From NCBI GenBank assembly GCA_002753185.1, contig PDZX01000006.1, positions 1 to 64,000 of the forward strand: a stretch of DNA of 64,000 nt, given 5' to 3'. Position numbers and translations under genes: made by a program. A model generated the notes under the pieces. That model searched no databases. It was not told the DNA's origin and saw nothing but the letters and a program-made list of their open reading frames with translations. This DNA comes from Magnetococcales bacterium WMHbin3 (GTDB lineage: Bacteria; Pseudomonadota; Magnetococcia; Magnetococcales; Magnetaquicoccaceae). Each line of letters opens with the position of its first letter. The stretch's first letter is position 1. Positions 37,669 to 48,266 of the stretch are shown here, one piece after another.

Positions 37669-38235
37669 TCAAGGCAGGCGAGGCGTGGGAAGGATGGTGC
37701 CCCCCTGACCAGGGAGAGGCATGCGCATCTCCTGACTGGCGGAAACATACTGCACGGGGAGGGGCCATGCCCTCATGAGACCAAAAAGCAGACCGATTCC
37801 GCCAAGGATCATGGCACCCATCTTGATCACCATGCGGAGTTCGAGTTCCTTGATATCCCGCTTCAACTCCGCCTTGGTGGCTTCGATATCCCTTTGCAAT
37901 TCCGCCTTGGTGGTTTCGATCTTGACGTCCAGTGTCTTGATATCCAGCTTCAATGCCGCCTTGGTGGTTTCGATCTTGGCGTCCACATTGGCGATGTCCC
38001 GCTGCAATTCCGCCTTGGTGGTTTCGAGCTTGACGTCCAGGTCCTTGATGTCCCGCTTGAGTTCCAGCACCTTGACGTCCAGGTTGGTGATATCCGCCTT
38101 GGTGGAGAGTTGATGACCCAAAATCTCCGTGAGCAGAAGTACCTGGGTTTCCGCCTGCTCTTCCGTGAAGCCGGTGGCCACCATCTGTTTCACGAAATGA
38201 TGGGTATCGAAGGCAATGGCTGGCGACAGGCTCAT
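37669..38235 (-). CDS. Coiled-coil membrane protein (DUF1640-like)
   Basis: 188 residues: N-terminal AFDTHHFVKQMVATGFTEEQAE, a long coiled coil (~45-135) of repeated units such as LDVKIETTKAELQRDI, then a membrane segment (MGAMILGGIGLLFGLM) and a short Pro-rich tail. Resembles the CCDC90/DUF1640 group and shares its N-terminus with the 88-residue gene at 7233. Function unknown. Convergent with cobO, eight bases apart. Confidence 0.75.
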   Translation of the reverse strand: MSLSPAIAFDTHHFVKQMVATGFTEEQAETQVLLLTEILGHQLSTKADITNLDVKVLELKRDIKDLDVKLETTKAELQRDIANVDAKIETTKAALKLDIKTLDVKIETTKAELQRDIEATKAELKRDIKELELRMVIKMGAMILGGIGLLFGLMRAWPLPVQYVSASQEMRMPLPGQGGTILPTPRLP

Positions 38236-38753
38236 GAAGCATCACTCCCCTGGTTTGACCCGGTTGGACTTGATTGCATGATACCCGGAACCCCAAGGCG
38301 TTGCCAACAACAATCACCTCGCCTGCTGGAAATGGTCGGAGCATGCCGGTTCCCGTCACGCACATTATAATCAACACAATATTCAATCTAATCACACTAT
38401 TTCATTAATTAGTTTCATTAACTGATAATAACAAAATACAAAAGCCAATAATATCTTTTTATAATAAAATTAAATTATTGTTTGATTATCTTTCCAATCT
38501 CAATATTACAATTAAATATTACTTTATGATTTTCATTAACTGTTAACAGTAAATAATTTCTTAGCAATTTCATCAAAATACTAACAAAAAACTATATGCG
38601 CAGAAATTTTCGATAATCTGATTTTTTTTCTTGACGTATTTTAATGTATCGCTTACGCTTAATAAAAAGAAGCAACAAAGATGTAATTCATTTGATATTA
38701 ATTAATAAAAAGTTCAAGACAACACCAATTACGACAATACTGAGGAGAAAAAA
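38236..38753. other. AT-rich intergenic region
   Basis: About 520 bases, with 38370-38740 especially AT-rich and containing no believable gene. A candidate promoter lies at 38631-38659 (TTGACG, 17-base spacer, TACGCT), about 95 bases upstream of the next gene. The composition is unlike the flanking operons and matches the AT-rich gene that follows. Confidence 0.5.
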
Positions 38754-39587
38754 ATGTTCATCATACCAAAAAAGAGTGCAAAAAAATATTCTTTTAGTTT
38801 TTTTGCAATGCTTTTTGCGTGGCAAAGCCAAACAAATTCGGCGCATGCGTTTAGCGGCGAAAAAATCATGGAATTGATCTTCGAGACGATAACGAGACCA
38901 ACCATCAACTATGACAACAATAATGGAGACTTGTTATATTATCATTTGAACAGGAAAAACGCCGGATTGGGAACAGGACCCAATCAAAAAAGTCTGTTTC
39001 TCGACAAAGACTCGTTCAATCGCGCGCCCGGCTTGATGGTTGGACCAATTTTTTCCTTGGGGGAGTTTGGCAAGGTGCATGTCGATGCAAAAGTTCTTTT
39101 CGGAATACTTGATAACGACAGTTCATCGACAACCAGAACCGATGCCGGCTATGGCGGCGCTTTCGGCTATACGGGAGATATCACGACAACCACGAAGTCA
39201 AAAACAGACATACTTCTTGGCGTCAACATGTCCTATCCGTTAGTAAGCTTTAGTAACGACACAAAACCGATCACACTGAGTCCGACCGCCTATGCCGGCG
39301 TCAAGAGAGTTTCCTACGAAACAAACACCACTGGCAAAATCTGGAATTATACCGCAGTCGGCGAAAACTCCGCAACCGCCAGACAGCGCCCCTCTGAAAC
39401 CGTCAACGAAACGGTCAAAGGACATGTGAGCGTGCCGGAAGTCGGGCTTGGATTTGCACTGGGCAGATCAAAAACAGACGGTTCAAAACAAGACCTGACG
39501 CAACTCCATGCTGGCTTCAAGCATGAATTCACAGCAAACACAAATTCATACTTTCTTGAAATGACATGGGATATTGCGCCAAAATAA
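38754..39587 (+). CDS. Exported protein of unknown family, possibly an outer-membrane barrel
   Basis: I do not recognise the family. The 277-residue product has a Sec signal peptide (basic KKSAKKY, hydrophobic FSFFAMLFAW, likely cleavage after SAHA). The mature part alternates polar and hydrophobic residues in strand-like blocks (GKVHVDAKVLFGIL, TDILLGVNMSYPLVSF, LHAGFKHEFTAN) and ends in a strand, YFLEMTWDI. This suits a small beta-barrel or beta-rich secreted protein. GAGGAGAAAAAA before the ATG fixes the start. Codon use is more AT-rich than the neighbours, hinting at transfer. No partner genes. Confidence 0.6.
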   Translation: MFIIPKKSAKKYSFSFFAMLFAWQSQTNSAHAFSGEKIMELIFETITRPTINYDNNNGDLLYYHLNRKNAGLGTGPNQKSLFLDKDSFNRAPGLMVGPIFSLGEFGKVHVDAKVLFGILDNDSSSTTRTDAGYGGAFGYTGDITTTTKSKTDILLGVNMSYPLVSFSNDTKPITLSPTAYAGVKRVSYETNTTGKIWNYTAVGENSATARQRPSETVNETVKGHVSVPEVGLGFALGRSKTDGSKQDLTQLHAGFKHEFTANTNSYFLEMTWDIAPK

Positions 39588-39620: not shown

Positions 39621-41906
39621 TCACTGGCCCTCCTCCACACCGCCATGAATCCGACAACGGTTTCTGCCTCCCCGTTTGGCGTGATACATGGCGGTGTCGG
39701 CCTGCTTGAGCAGGGTCTCCGGATCCTGCCCCAGGTCGGGGAACAGGGTGATGCCGATGCTGGTGCCGATCCGGCATTCGATGCCTTGCAAGTGGAACGG
39801 CCGGGTCAGGGAGGCAATGATCTTGTCGGCCACCAGGCGGGTATCGTCGAGATTCTGGACATGGCGCAAAAGAATGGCGAACTCGTCTCCCCCCAGACGC
39901 GCCACGGTGTCCTCTTGACGCAACAACTCCTGCAACCGGGTGGACACGGCCTGCAACAGCAAATCCCCCACCTTGTGGCCGTGGGTGTCGTTGACCGCCT
40001 TGAACAGATCCAGATCCAGATAAAACACCCCCACCCTCTGCCGGTGACGCGCCGCCTCCCTGAGCGCCTGCTCCAGACGCTGATGGAACAACATCCGATT
40101 GGGAATCGCGGTCAGGGCGTCGTAGAAGGCCAGGTTTTCGAGTTGCCGTTCAAAGGCCTTGCGTTCCGTGATGTCGGAAAAGATGGCCATGTAATGGGTC
40201 ACCTCGTCCTGTTCGTTCCGGATGGCGCTGATGCTCAACCACTCCGGAAAGACCTCCCCGTTCTTGCGCCGGTTCCACAACTCCCCGCGCCAGGAGCCGG
40301 TCCCGTTCAACGTTTGCCACAACTCCCGAAAGAAGGAGGCATCATGCCGCCCGGATCCCAGCAGACGCGGGTTCTGGCCGATGACATCGCCCGGAGCATA
40401 GCCCGTCAACTGGGTGAAAGCGGGATTGACCATCCGAATGACCGCCTCCGCGTCGGTGATGATGATCCCTTCCAGGGCCTGCTCGATGATCGTGAAGCCC
40501 AGTTTCAGCCGCTGTTCGATCTCCTTGCGCGCGGTGATGTCGCGCAGAATGCCGATGGCGCACCAGCACTCCCGGTAGCGGATGGCGGATATGGACAAGT
40601 CGAAGGGAAACTCCTCGCCGTTCTTGCGCATCCCGACCAGTTCCACGGTGCGGTCGAGAAAGTTGCCCTCTCCCGTCTCGCGCAGTCGCCGCATGCCACG
40701 GGTTGCCGCCGGATGAAACCGTTCCGGGGCCAGCAGACGATGCAACTCCCGGCCCTCCATCTCCTCGGCGGAATAACCGAAAATCCGTTGCGCGGCGGGA
40801 TTCCAGAATTGCACCACATCCTGGTCGTCGATCATGATGATGGCGTCCTGGGCCGCAGTGGCAATACTGCGAAAACGGGCCTCGCTTTCCAGCAAGGCGG
40901 CCTCGTGTTCCCGCAGTCTGGTTTCGATCCGCTCCAGGTGTCCGGCAAAAAACAGAATCAATCCCCCGCCACCAAGGAGAGCGATCGCAATCACCAGAAA
41001 GATCAGCCGTTGCGAATCGTTGTAGCGTGTCGTCACATCCTGGACGAACACCAGAAAGGCATTCTCCCGCCCCTCCACATCCGCGACCGGGAGACGGGCA
41101 ACGTTGACACGGCTCTCCCCGAAGGCAAGATGCATCCAGTCACGCCTCCCCCCGTTCTGCTCTTTTGCCCCATCGAAACGATCCAGCAGACCGGAGGGTG
41201 GGCTGGCGGTCCGATCGACGAGCACGATATCGGCAAAGGCGTCCCATTGTGGGGTACGTTTCAGCATGGCCATGCCCGCTTCCCACTCCGCGCGCTGGAG
41301 ATGGCGCTTGGGCACCAGAAAATAGAGGTCCACATGATGCAATTTGTGGATCTCCGTGATCCGATGGTCCACTTCCATGCCCAATTCCACCAGGCCGATC
41401 CGGTTTTTCCCCTCGATCCAGGGCATGACCACGCGCAGGGTGAAGGTGCCCAACGGTCCCATTTCCAACCCCGAGGTGGTGACGCCGGTTTCGTGGGCGA
41501 CACGGGTGGTATGGCGTCCGATGAGGTCGCCATGTCGATCCGGCTGATGCACGCGCAGGAAATTGATCTTGTCCGGCTGGGTGAAATAGAAGTGGGTGAT
41601 GCCGTGCCTGCCGCGCAACTCCCCGAACAGCTCCCTGGTCAGGCCCAACAGCCGCTCCCGATCCCTTGCCACGAAGGCGTCCCGGATTTCGGCGTTGCGC
41701 AATACCGCAGCGAGAGTGGCGCTCATCATGGCGGCGTCGTTGTTCATCCCCAGTTCCCAGCTTTGTCGAATCTCCTCGATGGCGGTTCGCAGGTCGGCGC
41801 GATTGACCGAATGCGCGTACCAGTAAACCCCCAGGGAAACCCCCATGGTCAAAATGGCAATGAAGATCGCCAAGGGGAGCAAAACGGGTTTTTTGATGGC
41901 GCGCAT
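39621..41906 (-). CDS. Membrane diguanylate cyclase (dCache-PAS-PAS-GGDEF)
   Basis: Makes c-di-GMP from GTP. 761 residues: TM1 (VLLPLAIFIAILTMGVSLGVYW), a periplasmic double-Cache-like sensor (~30-300), TM2 (LIFLVIAIALLGGGGLILFF), two PAS domains (~345-465 and ~470-590), and a GGDEF domain with intact active-site RLGGDEFAIL. I see no RxxD inhibitory site just before it (LLRQEDT). No EAL follows. An extended -10 (TGGTATAAT) at about 41961-41970 on this strand would start transcription near 41955, so I prefer the ATG at 41906 over the one at 41957. Confidence 0.9.
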   Translation of the reverse strand: MRAIKKPVLLPLAIFIAILTMGVSLGVYWYAHSVNRADLRTAIEEIRQSWELGMNNDAAMMSATLAAVLRNAEIRDAFVARDRERLLGLTRELFGELRGRHGITHFYFTQPDKINFLRVHQPDRHGDLIGRHTTRVAHETGVTTSGLEMGPLGTFTLRVVMPWIEGKNRIGLVELGMEVDHRITEIHKLHHVDLYFLVPKRHLQRAEWEAGMAMLKRTPQWDAFADIVLVDRTASPPSGLLDRFDGAKEQNGGRRDWMHLAFGESRVNVARLPVADVEGRENAFLVFVQDVTTRYNDSQRLIFLVIAIALLGGGGLILFFAGHLERIETRLREHEAALLESEARFRSIATAAQDAIIMIDDQDVVQFWNPAAQRIFGYSAEEMEGRELHRLLAPERFHPAATRGMRRLRETGEGNFLDRTVELVGMRKNGEEFPFDLSISAIRYRECWCAIGILRDITARKEIEQRLKLGFTIIEQALEGIIITDAEAVIRMVNPAFTQLTGYAPGDVIGQNPRLLGSGRHDASFFRELWQTLNGTGSWRGELWNRRKNGEVFPEWLSISAIRNEQDEVTHYMAIFSDITERKAFERQLENLAFYDALTAIPNRMLFHQRLEQALREAARHRQRVGVFYLDLDLFKAVNDTHGHKVGDLLLQAVSTRLQELLRQEDTVARLGGDEFAILLRHVQNLDDTRLVADKIIASLTRPFHLQGIECRIGTSIGITLFPDLGQDPETLLKQADTAMYHAKRGGRNRCRIHGGVEEGQ

Positions 41907-42032
41907 CGTCACGAATTCCGGCAAGAGGCATAATGGGCATTTATGGTTCATAAACAAAAATTATATTATACCAGCATAACATCGATTCATTGGCTCGACA
42001 AGCCCATAAATGCTTTATTGGCGAAAATCCGG

Positions 42033-43154: not shown

Positions 43155-43399
43155 CCCCCCGGTAAAACGCGTAACACCGACCAACCAAATATATTCTACA
43201 CAATCGTGTTCGAAATAAATTCAAACAATTTCAATCAGATATTCTATAACAGTTATTAATAATCAAAAAAAATATAATCATAAATATTTGATTGACTTCA
43301 TGCGGAAAAATATGATAATCTTGCCTTTCTGGCAGAAGAATGAAATGTGACAGATTTTTACTGAAACCGCTTCATTGTTGCAACAACAGGAGAGCAATC
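43155..43399. other. AT-rich spacer before the NTPase-EAL gene
   Basis: About 245 bases, strongly AT-rich from ~43185, with no gene. It marks the left edge of an AT-rich block that continues through the next gene to ~46400 and stops abruptly at the GC-rich TerD-FtsK gene. Confidence 0.5.
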
Positions 43400-46300
43400 A
43401 TGTCTCAATATCAAGAATTTATTAACAATCTTTCATACAACCCACATTTTGACTCAAGAAAAAATGAAAACAATCTTGAGTCGATTGCATTATATGCCAT
43501 TAGAGAACTGATCAGGCCTTTTCATGGCTTGTTGGATCTTTCCCCGCAACATTCCGCCAACATTGATATCTTTCGCGACATTTTTATCCCGCACGACCAA
43601 ATCTCAAGCCAAGCAAGAAAAGAAGCATTAAAGATTTTCAAAAATGAAAAATATAATAATAATGATTCGGATGATTGTTTTGATCAGTATTTGGTCAAGG
43701 AGATGAATGCGGAACTTATGCATCATGGTGCAATCGATCTTGAACGAGACATACGTCAATCGATGAAGCATGAATATGTCGCTCCCCAATTATATTTTAT
43801 CTTGGGTTGCCCAGGGGTTGGCAAGAGCAGTATGTTGCGATATTTCCAAGAATTGATAAACAACAACCCAAAGATAAATGATTTATATTTAAAATCATCA
43901 TCATCTAGCTTCAATGTCGGCGTGGCGACAGCACAATCACCGATCAAACAAATGTTGGAAGCAATTGAAAACAGCCTCCAATTGCCAGTTGACGCCAATG
44001 CGGACATCTCTGCGCGGATGCGCAGTATTGTGAGTTGCTGCAATAATAACATTATCATGCATACAGTTGACAATCTTGACAATATCCATGATCCAAAGGA
44101 AGTTCTCGATATTGTCAAAGACGCCATGTACCTTCATGAACAATTCAAAAGCTTACAAAATCATCATTCCAACCATATCAAGAAAGGAACAACAATAATA
44201 ATTATTGCAATGAGAAAAACATCATTTCAGCAGCTATCGCTTACCGGAATTCTGGAAAGAGAACCTAGTAAAAAATTCATACTGACGCCAGCGCCTTTAG
44301 CATTAATTCTTAAGAAAAGATTTGACATGATTGAAGAGGCTATTGATCGAATGAGGGTCAACTCAAAACCAAAAATAATAAGAATAGGCATCGACGATAC
44401 CTATAACGAATCAATACCGACCCTGTCAGATGACGAAGTGCCTTATGAGTTCAACATGGTTGGCGTTGTCAGGGGTAAATTTTACAATATTACAGTATCG
44501 CAAAAAAATGCTGTTGACTTTTTTATCAGCATACTTGCAGCAATGAACAGTCAAGCTCTCGCCTTTTTCCGCCATCTTTGTGGAGGCAACCTGAGAACCC
44601 AATTACAACTCTTCCTGCGTCTTTTTACCGACATCCCAATCAGTCGCACACAAACAATCAGAAATATTATATATAGCATCCTTGAATTTGAACAAACCAC
44701 TTTAAATAATCGAAACAGACTGACGATTGGTATTCATCACATTGCACAAGCTTTACAAGGTCTATCAAGAAACGCTCTTGGTGTTAATGATTTCTTTTGC
44801 TGGGAAACCCTGTTTGAAAATTCTCCTTATGCATTATTTGCCCATATCGAAAGACGAAAATGGTGGAATGAAAATAAAGGGTGGTGGCATTATTTGATAA
44901 AAATTCGCCTTCTACAATATTTGAATGCATCTCCGAAAGGGATGGCCGTCTATAAAATAGTAGAGCAATTTGAGCGGCTCGGTTACCCACAGCAATCGAT
45001 CGTTGACGCATTGAAGAGCTTCTCAAATTATCGACTGATCAATACGGATTTCGCATATACGCCACTTATACGCCACGACTCTGAACAAAAAATTATTCTC
45101 ATGCCTTCTGGATTGTTCTTTTTAAAGAATCTTTTCCACCAATTTGGCTTCTGTAGATGGGCTTTCTCTTTTGCCCCATCCCATTTTACTAACAAAGAAT
45201 ACAGCAACGAATTGTTATACCCTATTGCTTTTTTAAAAATCATTAGAAACGCCGAGGCGATAGAAACACAAATCGCGAGCCAGGATCGTAACGTGCTGGA
45301 TTTCTTGAACAGCGTCCGAGGAGAGCATACAATCTGGGAATCATTGCAGAAATCATTTTTAAAAACCCTCACTCAAATAAAAAGATCTGTAGAGAGACGA
45401 GCTGGTGATGAATTGGAGGTTACAAACACAAAATACATTGTTGAGGCAATTTCGGAGTGCCAATCGCTAAGCGATACCGATACTATTATGCTTGAAGAAA
45501 ATGAATTAAAATCAAAGGTAAAAAAATTACCCGATTGTTGCAAACAATGTATTGACTCAATTTGCTGCTCAACATTACCTGAAATGCATGTACATCCTTA
45601 TACTAAATTTCCATGGCGATTGGAACCGATTGTCAAACTCATACCAAATCAACCACCAAAAACTGTTGGAGCTGAGCTGTTTTATATGCAGTACCATATA
45701 ACCCCATGGATAAATCATACCACATCAACATGCCATGACTTTTGTTCGTCACGCTCACAATATGGATGCTCCGCAGGCGACCTCTTTCGCATGATGCGTC
45801 AATTTACCCAGTCTTGTCCAAAATTTGCTGACAGAGTCTTTTTGCATCATCTCATGCAATATGCAGAACAACTTAGACTAAAAAATAGTCTTGAATTTGT
45901 CAGCATTAATATATCATCAGAATTATTTGAAGAGACGGATTTGTTAGACTGTAGTTTGTTGTCCCATTACACGGAAAATTGGAAAGTGATGATAGAATTG
46001 CCAGAAAGAGCAATCAACATTACCGCGTACGTGAAATCCATCAACAAATTATGCAATAATCCAAGTTTTGCACATAAAGTTCTGCTTGATGACTATCTGT
46101 CATCCGGAAATGCGGCAGCGTTACCAACCAACTCGCACCGTAAACATTGTATACTGGGCGAAAAGGTTGACTACGAAACATTTCAGAGACTCTTTAAGGA
46201 AAAATGTCTACAATCATATCTAAGCGAGAGAATACAAAATCTAACATCGTCATCACAAATCGTCATTGTCGAGGGAATCGCGCACCTGGATCATATGCAA

Positions 46301-46402
46301 TTCCTGCAAAAAATTGTTGACCAATCCAATGCCACGCAAAGTCCAATCTTAAATCTTCACATTCAAGGCCACATGCTGCAGATATTAAACCCTCAACTGT
46401 AA
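43400..46402 (+). CDS. P-loop NTPase fused to a divergent EAL-like domain
   Basis: A 1000-residue AT-rich gene. Start at MSQYQEFINN follows GGAGAG; an upstream ATG at 43340 lacks one. An N-terminal region (1-125) precedes an NTPase with Walker A GCPGVGKS (136-143), a Walker B-like IIMHTVDNLD and a following IIIIAMRKTSF strand, then a winged-helix-like part (YLNASPKGMAVYKIVEQF) as in STAND/Orc-type ATPases. Residues ~755-1000 align in order with EAL phosphodiesterases: LFYMQYHI, SINIS (Asn837), IELPE (Glu866), LLDDYLSSGN (Asp897-Asp898), EKVD (Lys922), VIVEGIAH (Glu958) and HIQGH (Gln989). The EAL triplet itself appears as DFC near 780. My reading of this domain is by motif only. No homologue is known to me. 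Confidence 0.7.
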   Translation: MSQYQEFINNLSYNPHFDSRKNENNLESIALYAIRELIRPFHGLLDLSPQHSANIDIFRDIFIPHDQISSQARKEALKIFKNEKYNNNDSDDCFDQYLVKEMNAELMHHGAIDLERDIRQSMKHEYVAPQLYFILGCPGVGKSSMLRYFQELINNNPKINDLYLKSSSSSFNVGVATAQSPIKQMLEAIENSLQLPVDANADISARMRSIVSCCNNNIIMHTVDNLDNIHDPKEVLDIVKDAMYLHEQFKSLQNHHSNHIKKGTTIIIIAMRKTSFQQLSLTGILEREPSKKFILTPAPLALILKKRFDMIEEAIDRMRVNSKPKIIRIGIDDTYNESIPTLSDDEVPYEFNMVGVVRGKFYNITVSQKNAVDFFISILAAMNSQALAFFRHLCGGNLRTQLQLFLRLFTDIPISRTQTIRNIIYSILEFEQTTLNNRNRLTIGIHHIAQALQGLSRNALGVNDFFCWETLFENSPYALFAHIERRKWWNENKGWWHYLIKIRLLQYLNASPKGMAVYKIVEQFERLGYPQQSIVDALKSFSNYRLINTDFAYTPLIRHDSEQKIILMPSGLFFLKNLFHQFGFCRWAFSFAPSHFTNKEYSNELLYPIAFLKIIRNAEAIETQIASQDRNVLDFLNSVRGEHTIWESLQKSFLKTLTQIKRSVERRAGDELEVTNTKYIVEAISECQSLSDTDTIMLEENELKSKVKKLPDCCKQCIDSICCSTLPEMHVHPYTKFPWRLEPIVKLIPNQPPKTVGAELFYMQYHITPWINHTTSTCHDFCSSRSQYGCSAGDLFRMMRQFTQSCPKFADRVFLHHLMQYAEQLRLKNSLEFVSINISSELFEETDLLDCSLLSHYTENWKVMIELPERAINITAYVKSINKLCNNPSFAHKVLLDDYLSSGNAAALPTNSHRKHCILGEKVDYETFQRLFKEKCLQSYLSERIQNLTSSSQIVIVEGIAHLDHMQFLQKIVDQSNATQSPILNLHIQGHMLQILNPQL

Positions 46403-46419
46403 ATCGAAATTGGCGCAGA

Positions 46420-48141
46420 TTAAAAGGTATTGGCCAACCCCGCCATCAACCCCGCATCCGGGGCATAGGGGACGGTGGCGCGCAGGTAGCGCAGGATGGC
46501 CATGACGTTGCCATCGCTCACCATGGGGGCCTGAATCCGCCGCAAGGGTTGGCCGGGGGCGATGAAGAGGCCGTCGCCCGCGCCCAGCAGGTTCTCGGCG
46601 CCACCTTCGTCCAGGATGATGCGGGCGTCGGTCTTCGAGGTCACCTTGAAGGCCAACCGCGCCGGAATGTTGGATTTTATCAATCCCGTCAACACATCCC
46701 GTGAGGGACGCTGGGTGGCCAGAATCAGGTGCAGGCCAGCCGCCCTGCCCATCTGCGCCAGACGGGCCAAAGGCTCCTCGATCCCCTTGCCGCTTTGCAA
46801 CATCAAGTCCGCCAGCTCGTCCACCACCACGACCAACAACGGCGGAACCGGCGGATGGCCAGCGGGCAACCCCCGCCAACCCTCCAGATTGCGCACCCCA
46901 ATATCCCGCATGCGCTGATAACGGCGCTCCATCTCCCCGGTCAGCCAATGCAGGGCCGCAACCGCCTGACGCGCCTCGGTGATCACGGGAGCCAGCAGAT
47001 GGGGGGCGTTGTCGTACAGGGAGAACTCACTGCGCTTGGGATCCACCAACACCAGCCGCACCGCCTCCACCGGATTGCGCAACATCACTCCGCACATGAT
47101 CCCGTGCAACGCCACCGACTTGCCCGAACGGGTGGTCCCGGCCACCAGCAAATGGGGCAGCTGCTCCAAATCGGCGGCCACCGGACCCCCCCGCGCATCC
47201 ACCCCCAAGGGCAACAGCAACGGATTGCGCTGCTCCCGCACCGCCTCCAGAATGTGCCGCAATGGCACCATGCCACGCCTGGGGTTGGGAATCTCGATGC
47301 CGATCACCCCATGATCGAATATGGGATCGATGCGCAAGCCGGGACTCGCCATGGCCAGGGCCAGATCCGGCTCCAGCCCGACCACCCGCGACAGCTTCAC
47401 CCCAGGGGCCGGATCCAGGGCGTAGGTGGTCACCACCGGGCCGGGATCGTGCCCCACGATCTCGCCCTTGACCTTGAACTCCCCCAATGTCCGCTCGATG
47501 GCCGCGATCTGCGCCTCGTGGCGCGCGGCATCTGCCTCTGGCATGGGGGCGTCATCCAGGGGCAACAACGACAGCGGCGGCAGCGGTGAGGTCACGCTCC
47601 CGCTCCCCTCTCCCGCCGCCACCCCGAAATGGTTGCAAATCGCATCCAGGCCCCCGGCGAACCCCTGGCCGACCGCGCAAACGCGCCAGCTCTCATCCTT
47701 GCGGTAGAACTCCAGCAGCATCAGTCCCTTTTCGTCGGCGAACATCCCGCCTCGCATGACGAAGCGCCCGGTTTCCCTGCCCCCTTGCAACAGCCGGGCT
47801 GTCCCCTCCCCCATGACGGAAAACGCCCCTTCCCCATCGAGGGTGGCCACCAGGACCAGCCGGCTGATTGCCGCAGGCAGGGCGTTCAGGCGGAATTCGA
47901 ACCCCGCATCCCCTTCCGCCGTGACCGCCAGGGCGACCCCGCCACACGGGGTGGCAGGCTGATTGAAAAAGGTGACATAGCGGTCGTCCGTCGCCCGGCC
48001 CGCCCCATCCAGTCCGAAGCAGGCGCAATCCACCGTCACGCCCGCCGGCATGCCCAGGCGCAGGCCGGCCACGAACGGGCGTTGCGGATCCACCAGGTGT
48101 ATCAATTCTTGACGCTGACCGCGTTGTATTTCCATGTCCAT
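46420..48141 (-). CDS. TerD domain fused to an FtsK/SpoIIIE-type ATPase
   Basis: 573 residues. Residues ~1-185 form a TerD domain, the calcium-binding-type fold of tellurite/stress proteins (FVAGLRLGMPAGVTVDC, FNQPATP, FRLNALP, LVLVATLDGEG, GMFADEKGLMLLEFYRKD). After a Pro-rich linker comes an FtsK motor: Walker A GTTRSGKSVALH, DPKRSEFSLYD, Walker B LLVVVVDELADLM, ILATQRPSRDVLTGLIKSNIPAR and GGAENLLGAGDGLF. No membrane anchor and no gamma DNA-reading domain, so it is soluble and distinct from the cell-division FtsK. An in-frame TTG at 48165 is possible; I chose the ATG at 48141. Confidence 0.85.
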   Translation of the reverse strand: MDMEIQRGQRQELIHLVDPQRPFVAGLRLGMPAGVTVDCACFGLDGAGRATDDRYVTFFNQPATPCGGVALAVTAEGDAGFEFRLNALPAAISRLVLVATLDGEGAFSVMGEGTARLLQGGRETGRFVMRGGMFADEKGLMLLEFYRKDESWRVCAVGQGFAGGLDAICNHFGVAAGEGSGSVTSPLPPLSLLPLDDAPMPEADAARHEAQIAAIERTLGEFKVKGEIVGHDPGPVVTTYALDPAPGVKLSRVVGLEPDLALAMASPGLRIDPIFDHGVIGIEIPNPRRGMVPLRHILEAVREQRNPLLLPLGVDARGGPVAADLEQLPHLLVAGTTRSGKSVALHGIMCGVMLRNPVEAVRLVLVDPKRSEFSLYDNAPHLLAPVITEARQAVAALHWLTGEMERRYQRMRDIGVRNLEGWRGLPAGHPPVPPLLVVVVDELADLMLQSGKGIEEPLARLAQMGRAAGLHLILATQRPSRDVLTGLIKSNIPARLAFKVTSKTDARIILDEGGAENLLGAGDGLFIAPGQPLRRIQAPMVSDGNVMAILRYLRATVPYAPDAGLMAGLANTF

Positions 48142-48266
48142 GTGCCCGTATCCAGGAGGTCGCAAGGTATTGGCTTCCTTGACGTGTCATTTTTCCACCA
48201 TTTTCGCATTCGCCAGCAAAGATGTCAATGTTCTGTTTTTATTGCAAAAATAACATTTTGTCGATT

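Follow-up and report, generated by a model that had tools for sequence, protein, structure and literature searches.

An ATPase fused to a divergent EAL domain in a Magnetococcales bacterium, with relatives of that domain in conflict-type NTPase proteins

The P0001 gene and its product

EAL domains are taken as the hallmark of the breakdown of cyclic di-GMP (c-di-GMP). Here, we describe a gene, P0001, in which a divergent EAL domain is joined to a P-loop nucleoside triphosphatase (NTPase). The gene lies in the 64,000 nucleotides analysed here ("the window"), which begin contig PDZX01000006.1 of Magnetococcales bacterium WMHbin3 (assembly GCA_002753185.1; genome G000 below). Both kinds of component are already known; what is new is a divergent lineage of putative EAL enzymes attached to conflict-type NTPases. 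What computation shows, as described below, is an EAL fold, a set of conserved residues, three contexts of the domain and an empty site in a sister genome.

P0001 is a single open reading frame of exactly 1000 amino acids on the forward strand, running from an ATG at 43400 to a stop ending at 46402; all features within it are given on that strand. An AGGAG ribosome-binding site, read from the sequence at 43388..43392 (+), stands seven bases before the ATG, and this start is therefore preferred over an in-frame ATG at 43340. The GC content of the gene is 38.3%, against 60.6% for the window. A full-length homologue, P0002, 28% identical to P0001, is found in genome G010, which belongs to the same genus. 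P0002 has 37% GC between flanks of 59% and 62%, and stands between adenosylhomocysteinase-like and ribonuclease E/G-like genes (named by reading their frames). Both genes are open from end to end.

The gene is part of a segment that includes its upstream region (43171..46425, 3255 bp). At the same place in G001, a sister genome of the same genus, there are 12 bp, and the flanks are collinear by blastn (85.6% and 89.2% identity). P0001 is thus an accessory gene, absent from this place in G001. The longest direct repeat within 15 bases of the segment's ends has 6 bases. The low GC of the gene favours gain in the window over loss in G001, which agrees with the transfer that an initial annotation, made from the sequence, had proposed from base composition. 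In G002, examined as a second empty site, only the side carrying the TerD-FtsK gene aligned.

The same annotation had described a fusion, within one 1000-residue gene, of a P-loop NTPase and an EAL region, and this is what the protein contains. An AAA_22 (Orc/Cdc6-like) ATPase is followed by a winged-helix-like middle, and this by the C-terminal EAL fold. The AAA_22 domain (residues 130-269, 43787..44206) scores 31.6 bits in Pfam, where the cut-off is 27; P0002 scores 31.1 bits. Eight of the nine residues of its Walker A motif, GCPGVGKSS (residues 136-144, 43805..43831), are identical in P0002. A strand ending in DNLD (residues 218-227, 44051..44080), which we take to be Walker B-like, shares D224, N225 and D227 with P0002, and GGNLR (residues 395-399, 44582..44596), presumably sensor-2-like in role, shares G396 and R399. 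The winged-helix-like region (residues 495-550, 44882..45049), a pattern assigned by reading, is conserved in P0002. Directly before the EAL domain lies a CxxC (residues 714-717, 45539..45550), both of whose cysteines are identical in P0002.

Likeness to Orc/Cdc6 beyond AAA_22 is weak (TIGR02928, E=0.012, in P0002 only), and NCBIfam was of no further help. Among Pfam models, AAA_22 alone matches P0001 above its cut-off, beside an EAL match below threshold, with no match to the NACHT or nSTAND models and none to any repeat family; an nSTAND3 match in P0002 (E=0.0022) is below cut-off. Of the STAND/Orc-like label given in the initial annotation, the STAND part is therefore uncertain. The layout of STAND proteins, with an N-terminal effector, a central NTPase and a C-terminal repeat sensor, is not that of P0001, whose EAL domain is C-terminal. 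No solved structure matches P0001 by sequence.

A C-terminal EAL fold

The divergent EAL domain occupies about residues 735-1000 (45602..46399). Its AlphaFold2 model (predicted template-modelling score 0.72; mean per-residue confidence, pLDDT, 70) was built from alignment A3, whose ten rows include no canonical EAL domain. Searched with Foldseek against the PDB, the model gave 92 matches with E<=0.001, the best at E=4e-8. All of the best 50 are EAL-family entries by title, two of them (2r6o and 3n3t) under the title of diguanylate cyclase/phosphodiesterase. On this model, the last ~265 residues of P0001 are an EAL/TIM-barrel-type fold; the initial annotation had named the lack of a TIM barrel in the last 250 as what would refute its reading, and the model does not show such a lack.

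Profile comparison leads to the same place. Against 13 canonical EAL domains taken from G000 itself, A3 gives E=2.2e-7 with a score of 56.1, while 30 column shuffles reach at most 24.2; alignment A5, with 11 divergent domains, gives E=5.8e-8 and a score of 60.3. The divergent domains also find one another. P0001 and P0002 match the domains of eight EAL-NACHT proteins (E=3.7e-7, score 54.8; 20 column shuffles <=18.9) and the domain of a MoxR-type system (E=9.4e-8), both of which are described below.

Catalytic residues kept, recognition features changed

A5 aligns 11 related divergent EAL domains over 204 gap-free columns, the others being 18-29% identical to the window's own. Only 12 of these columns are invariant, and nine of the 12 are the catalytic and metal-binding set (hypergeometric 1.6e-13), a set of positions picked by motif and profile alignment and partly as commonly described for EAL domains. 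Each is thus unchanged in 11 of 11 domains. The set comprises Glu759 in GAELF, corresponding to the EAL (ExL) glutamate (45674..45676); Asn837 of the NLS strand (45908..45910); Glu866 and Glu869 of an ExxE (45995..46006); Asp897-Asp898 of the DDFG strand (46088..46093); Lys922 of KxD (46163..46165); Glu958 of EGV (46271..46273); and Gln989 of QG (46364..46366). According to passages in PMC12900916, PMC12943098 and PMC3527489, the glutamate of EAL binds metal, that of EGV is the catalytic base (the role of Glu958 being taken from the first two sources), and a lysine binds substrate.

Six landmarks of the initial annotation (Asn837, Glu866, Asp897/Asp898, Lys922, Glu958 and Gln989) were found at just these residues and are shared by P0002, as are Glu759 and Glu869. 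The annotation had also considered the EAL triplet lost. Its letters are indeed gone; its glutamate, however, is kept as Glu759, and Glu869 is kept as well. The match of Glu759 to the EAL glutamate comes from a profile alignment that was extended to this region with low confidence.

The features by which these enzymes recognise their substrate have fared differently. YQP, the loop 6 sequence DFG(T/A)GYSS and the arginine of ExLxR are each present in 0 of the 11 divergent domains, whereas all three are present in 11 of the 13 canonical domains of the same genome. The arginine has become Met, Val, Ile or Leu in ten domains and Lys in one. YQP is replaced by L/K-(D/E)-x, such that an Asp or Glu stands for its glutamine in all 11. 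Passages of PMC12943098 ascribe to YQP, Tyr160 and Arg179 of RocR an important part in binding the substrate.

A frozen catalytic core combined with changed recognition is not what a receptor would show. It suggests an enzyme, whose binding is probably altered. Because the usual recognition features are missing, it is uncertain that c-di-GMP is its ligand.

The domain resembles the EAL c-di-GMP phosphodiesterases (PF00563; RocR, YahA, BifA, Bd1971) in its fold and in the nine metal and catalytic residues. It differs from them in scoring below the Pfam cut-off, in its replaced recognition features, and in being fused to an NTPase. FimX, LapD and YdiV are degenerate EAL receptors, and the likeness to these lies in a divergent EAL domain without the full consensus. 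In the passages available, FimX and LapD are without catalytic residues or activity, while nine such residues are intact in P0001; the FimX domain, of very low activity, retains four of ten conserved residues (PMC3527489).

Three NTPase contexts

Three NTPase contexts contain the divergent EAL domain, all of them in one bacterial order. The first is the ATPase-EAL fusion itself, found in two genomes (P0001, and P0002 in G010).

In the second context, the domain precedes NACHT, pentapeptide and WD40 regions; the EAL part was found in eight of the 48 genomes from this order, the window's own among them. The protein in G000, P0003 (G000:C83:4499-9853, locus L023), has 1785 amino acids. It begins with the divergent EAL domain (PF00563 sub-threshold, E=1.2e-5) and continues with NACHT (32.6 bits, cut-off 26.7), pentapeptide repeats (131.6 bits, cut-off 20.2) and WD40 repeats. 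P0003 therefore fits the STAND layout of effector, NTPase and repeat sensor, with EAL at the effector end. The alignment with P0003 extends to its WD40 end for four of the seven other EAL-NACHT proteins and to residue 1315 for a fifth; for the last two it breaks off sooner, at a contig end or close to one. This layout is that of bNACHT and Avs proteins. In passages of PMC12169576, the N-terminus of bNACHT proteins is the effector, the centre oligomerises and the C-terminus senses, and the effectors named are nucleases. P0001 differs from these systems both in its ATPase and in its domain order, which is reversed.

Four of the eight EAL-NACHT genes (L023, L046, L047, L050) have a GGDEF gene no more than 5 kb away, where 0.49 would be expected (P=0.0007, post hoc); the flanks available for this count were cut short wherever a contig ended. 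By tblastn, none was found near L045, L048, L049 or L051. Post hoc as it is, this association keeps c-di-GMP in play. L047 has a GGDEF gene on each side; for P0003, the GGDEF gene has the same orientation and lies some 1.5 kb upstream.

Two further observations concern this family. L053 (G021:C17) is a broken EAL-NACHT copy, with its pieces in separate frames, one of them with an inner TAG. In L055:4703-8038, a weak ParA-like segment, an Mrr restriction-endonuclease domain, NACHT and pentapeptide repeats are combined in one protein, a NACHT relative of P0003 with a different N-terminus; L054:2059-7431 is similar.

The third context is the N-terminus of a conflict system of the MoxR type, seen in one genome (G015) and as a remnant in another (G028). 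In the remnant (G028:C133), an EAL tail, cut at the contig end beside a multi-copy repeat, is followed by a region that shares 44% identity with a protein of G001, in which there is a weak trypsin-like match; the remnant protein itself has no Pfam match. A search with this remnant found the G015 protein (G015:C279; L132:3432-5333), which has 634 amino acids and a complete N-terminal divergent EAL domain. Its C-terminal half is homologous to a protein of G043 (30% identity, E=2.9e-27) whose N-terminus carries instead a weak TIR_2 match (E=7.9e-5). Between G015 and G043, identity is 57% for the accompanying MoxR genes and 42% for the third genes. The G015 MoxR gene passes the bpMoxR cut-off (31.7 against 27), and the third gene has an FGE domain (E=7.7e-47).

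The arrangement resembles the MoxR-vWA ternary conflict systems of Kaur et al. (2020; PMC7159879, in the passages available). In those systems, nucleotide-signal domains, TIR among them, or peptidases are fused N-terminally to the third component, and effectors are found on the vWA component. Here, the G015 relative is followed by the bpMoxR-type ATPase and FGE-domain genes, and has an N-terminal EAL domain where its homologue has a TIR-like one. It differs in that Pfam finds no vWA domain in the G015 system, and the window gene stands alone. Other related proteins have trypsin-like matches (L133, L135) or both kinase-like and trypsin-like matches (L134). That of L134:3760-6540 (G002:C8), a weak APH-like phosphotransferase together with the trypsin-like match, is another unusual N-terminal occupant. 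In L136:250-1674 (G043:C12), the TIR stretch of the ternary-system protein is in two frames, an apparent frameshift.

Interpretation and alternatives

In the NACHT proteins, the EAL domain stands where an effector would, and in the MoxR system, where a homologue has its TIR-like domain. For this reason, it may be read as an enzyme that delivers an output or handles a signal, under the control of an NTPase. Our preferred explanation, to which we give a probability of roughly 0.56, is that P0001 is a one-gene switch whose output is a metal-dependent phosphodiesterase of the EAL fold, controlled by the ATPase, from a lineage exchangeable among conflict-type NTPases, and with a substrate that is perhaps not c-di-GMP. 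Here we infer catalysis, a direction of control, a substrate and a part in conflict or defence. The AAA_22 ATPase and the winged-helix-like middle would sense a trigger; an ATP-driven rearrangement would then switch on the C-terminal phosphodiesterase. Its EAL part would come from the divergent lineage whose domains are exchanged among conflict-type NTPases, and its substrate may be a related nucleotide, or c-di-GMP bound differently. Active EAL phosphodiesterases are described as dimers, with loop 6 involved in both dimerisation and activity (passages of PMC3032553 and PMC12943098). Control by assembly would therefore suit such an enzyme, although loop 6 itself is changed here.

A bolder version, less likely than not, is that this is an undescribed lineage of the EAL fold, interchangeable in at least three kinds of NTPase conflict machine, whose changed substrate lets it cleave or remodel another nucleotide signal or metabolite once the NTPase is triggered. 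The case for a changed substrate is that the catalytic centre is frozen while the recognition features are replaced, with Asp or Glu at the YQP glutamine in 11 of 11 domains. EAL relatives at the business end of immune-type proteins hint at an undescribed type of output enzyme. If this is true, a class of output enzyme would be added, and second-messenger metabolism would be joined to conflict systems.

Several observations weigh against the switch so proposed. The EAL domain of P0001 is C-terminal and not at the usual effector end; this reversed order, together with the AAA_22 ATPase, makes the output-enzyme reading less certain for P0001 than for its relatives. Indeed, the link to conflict-type NTPases made in the initial annotation holds through those relatives, the EAL-NACHT proteins and the MoxR system, and not through P0001 itself. 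The ATPase part is without a reliable model (a full-length AlphaFold run on two sequences gave pLDDT 35). The Foldseek matches of the EAL model are moderate, with TM scores of 0.29-0.64, root-mean-square deviations of 4.9-12.1 and identities of 10-18%. Taken alone, the P0001 domain scores 16.0 bits on PF00563, below the cut-off of 31.3; the P0002 domain has no score, and the best relative reaches 25.6 bits. P0001 and P0002 by themselves score 20.3 against the canonical EAL domains, inside the shuffle range (23.7), and the EAL link rests therefore on the wider family and the model. None of the TIR, trypsin-like and kinase-like matches in the ternary systems reaches its Pfam cut-off. Finally, no PADLOC family matches P0001, P0002 or the G015 EAL protein. 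Among seven neighbours of P0001, PADLOC matches were confined to the TerD-FtsK gene (SspH, mad8 and, weakly, HerA), and this gene is also present, at 90% identity, in G001, which is without P0001.

It might be argued that P0001 is simply an ordinary c-di-GMP phosphodiesterase set by an ATPase sensor, lowering c-di-GMP for the control of motility or surface behaviour, with no part in conflict. The complete catalytic set would be expected of such an enzyme, as would the GGDEF genes near half of the EAL-NACHT genes, and the genome does have 42 GGDEF matches beside its 13 canonical EAL domains. Further, certain Leptospira EAL proteins without YQP, or without both Tyr160 and Arg179, may still degrade c-di-GMP according to their authors (passages of PMC12943098), and these proteins speak against a changed substrate. 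Such an enzyme would, however, have had to part with YQP, loop 6 and the ExLxR arginine in every one of the 11 domains. The GGDEF gene near P0001 is also in G001, without P0001; the 16-kb P0002 locus has no GGDEF gene; and the relatives sit in conflict-type architectures. We regard this explanation as rather unlikely.

The initial annotation had offered, besides an ATPase-regulated phosphodiesterase, a c-di-GMP-gated ATPase, in which the EAL domain would sense c-di-GMP by binding it and thereby switch the ATPase. A receptor function is indeed described for degenerate EAL domains, that of LapD among them (passages of PMC3032553), and P0001 carries its EAL domain at the C-terminus, where STAND proteins carry their sensors. 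The receptors so described are, however, without catalytic residues or activity, while here the nine residues stay and the recognition features go, and in P0003 the sensor end is already occupied by WD40 repeats. Gating by c-di-GMP is therefore improbable, and the strict catalytic retention in these sequences fits better with an ATPase-regulated phosphodiesterase. It is very improbable that the domain is a decayed or purely structural relic carried by the ATPase. A domain below the Pfam cut-off might be a relic, of course, and the family does include a broken EAL-NACHT copy (G021) and a truncated EAL (G028). Against this, few positions of the domain are as well conserved across the three contexts as the catalytic residues, and neither ATPase-EAL gene is interrupted.

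Distribution and literature

Among 61 genomes (60 relatives and the window's own), P0002 is the one homologue of P0001 that was found. Of 398 genomes sampled from the phylum, two gave a match to the ATPase region, again those of P0001 and P0002. Residues 1-470 of P0003 have matches in 12 of the 398, nine of them in the order (one a broken copy, matching only outside EAL), and the remaining three, outside it, are weak (E 1.7e-4 to 4.3e-4). At E<=1e-8 in the same sample, A5 gave 18 matches. Eleven are its own members, two are fragments and five are canonical EAL domains, with no further divergent member seen outside the order. The candidates scored per genome in these searches were at most three for the ATPase region, four for P0003 1-470 and five for A5, so that absence in these samples is not absolute.

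Across the order, A3 at E<=0.001 returned its ten members, a contig-edge fragment and 32 other places. Ten of the 32 were checked; nine are PF00563 domains above cut-off and the tenth is the G028 remnant. A pattern scan found no close relatives in genome contigs or viral contigs, and tblastn with P0001 or the G015 protein found no match in plasmids and phages. The EAL-NACHT query did match ten plasmid records, but these were set aside because each match is confined to residues 529-947 and does not touch the EAL domain. The same was done with PADLOC matches of the EAL-NACHT proteins, which either lie in the WD40 repeats (HEAT-ARM_XIII, 1150-1335) or have marginal scores (E 0.006), and with those of the G015 MoxR gene, which are weak ATPase matches (E 3e-6 or worse).

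In the open-licence literature, in listings and the openings of abstracts, there was no fusion of EAL with this kind of ATPase, with NACHT, STAND or MoxR, although an earlier mention is possible. The term "EAL domain" has zero occurrences in four papers on conflict and defence (PMC7159879, PMC10907252, PMC8195603, PMC12839542).

Genomic neighbourhood

The seven neighbouring genes scanned encode GGDEF, DUF4189, HdeA, TerD-FtsK, DAHP synthase and GlnD proteins and one protein without a match; no MoxR or vWA gene is among them. Two of these belong to the backbone shared with G001. The PAS-GGDEF gene (39621-41957, by Pfam) is the one mentioned above as present there. The TerD-FtsK gene (46420-48165) fuses a TerD domain to FtsK alpha and motor domains by Pfam, and is conserved in G002 (65%) as well as in G001.

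A second AT-rich gene lies at 38754-39587 in the window; GC is 38% in the 1-kb stretch 38001-39000. Its 277-residue product has zero Pfam or PADLOC matches, and it is possibly a second import. At 37669-38235, on the minus strand, a 188-residue protein is built, by reading, of repeated coiled-coil-like segments.

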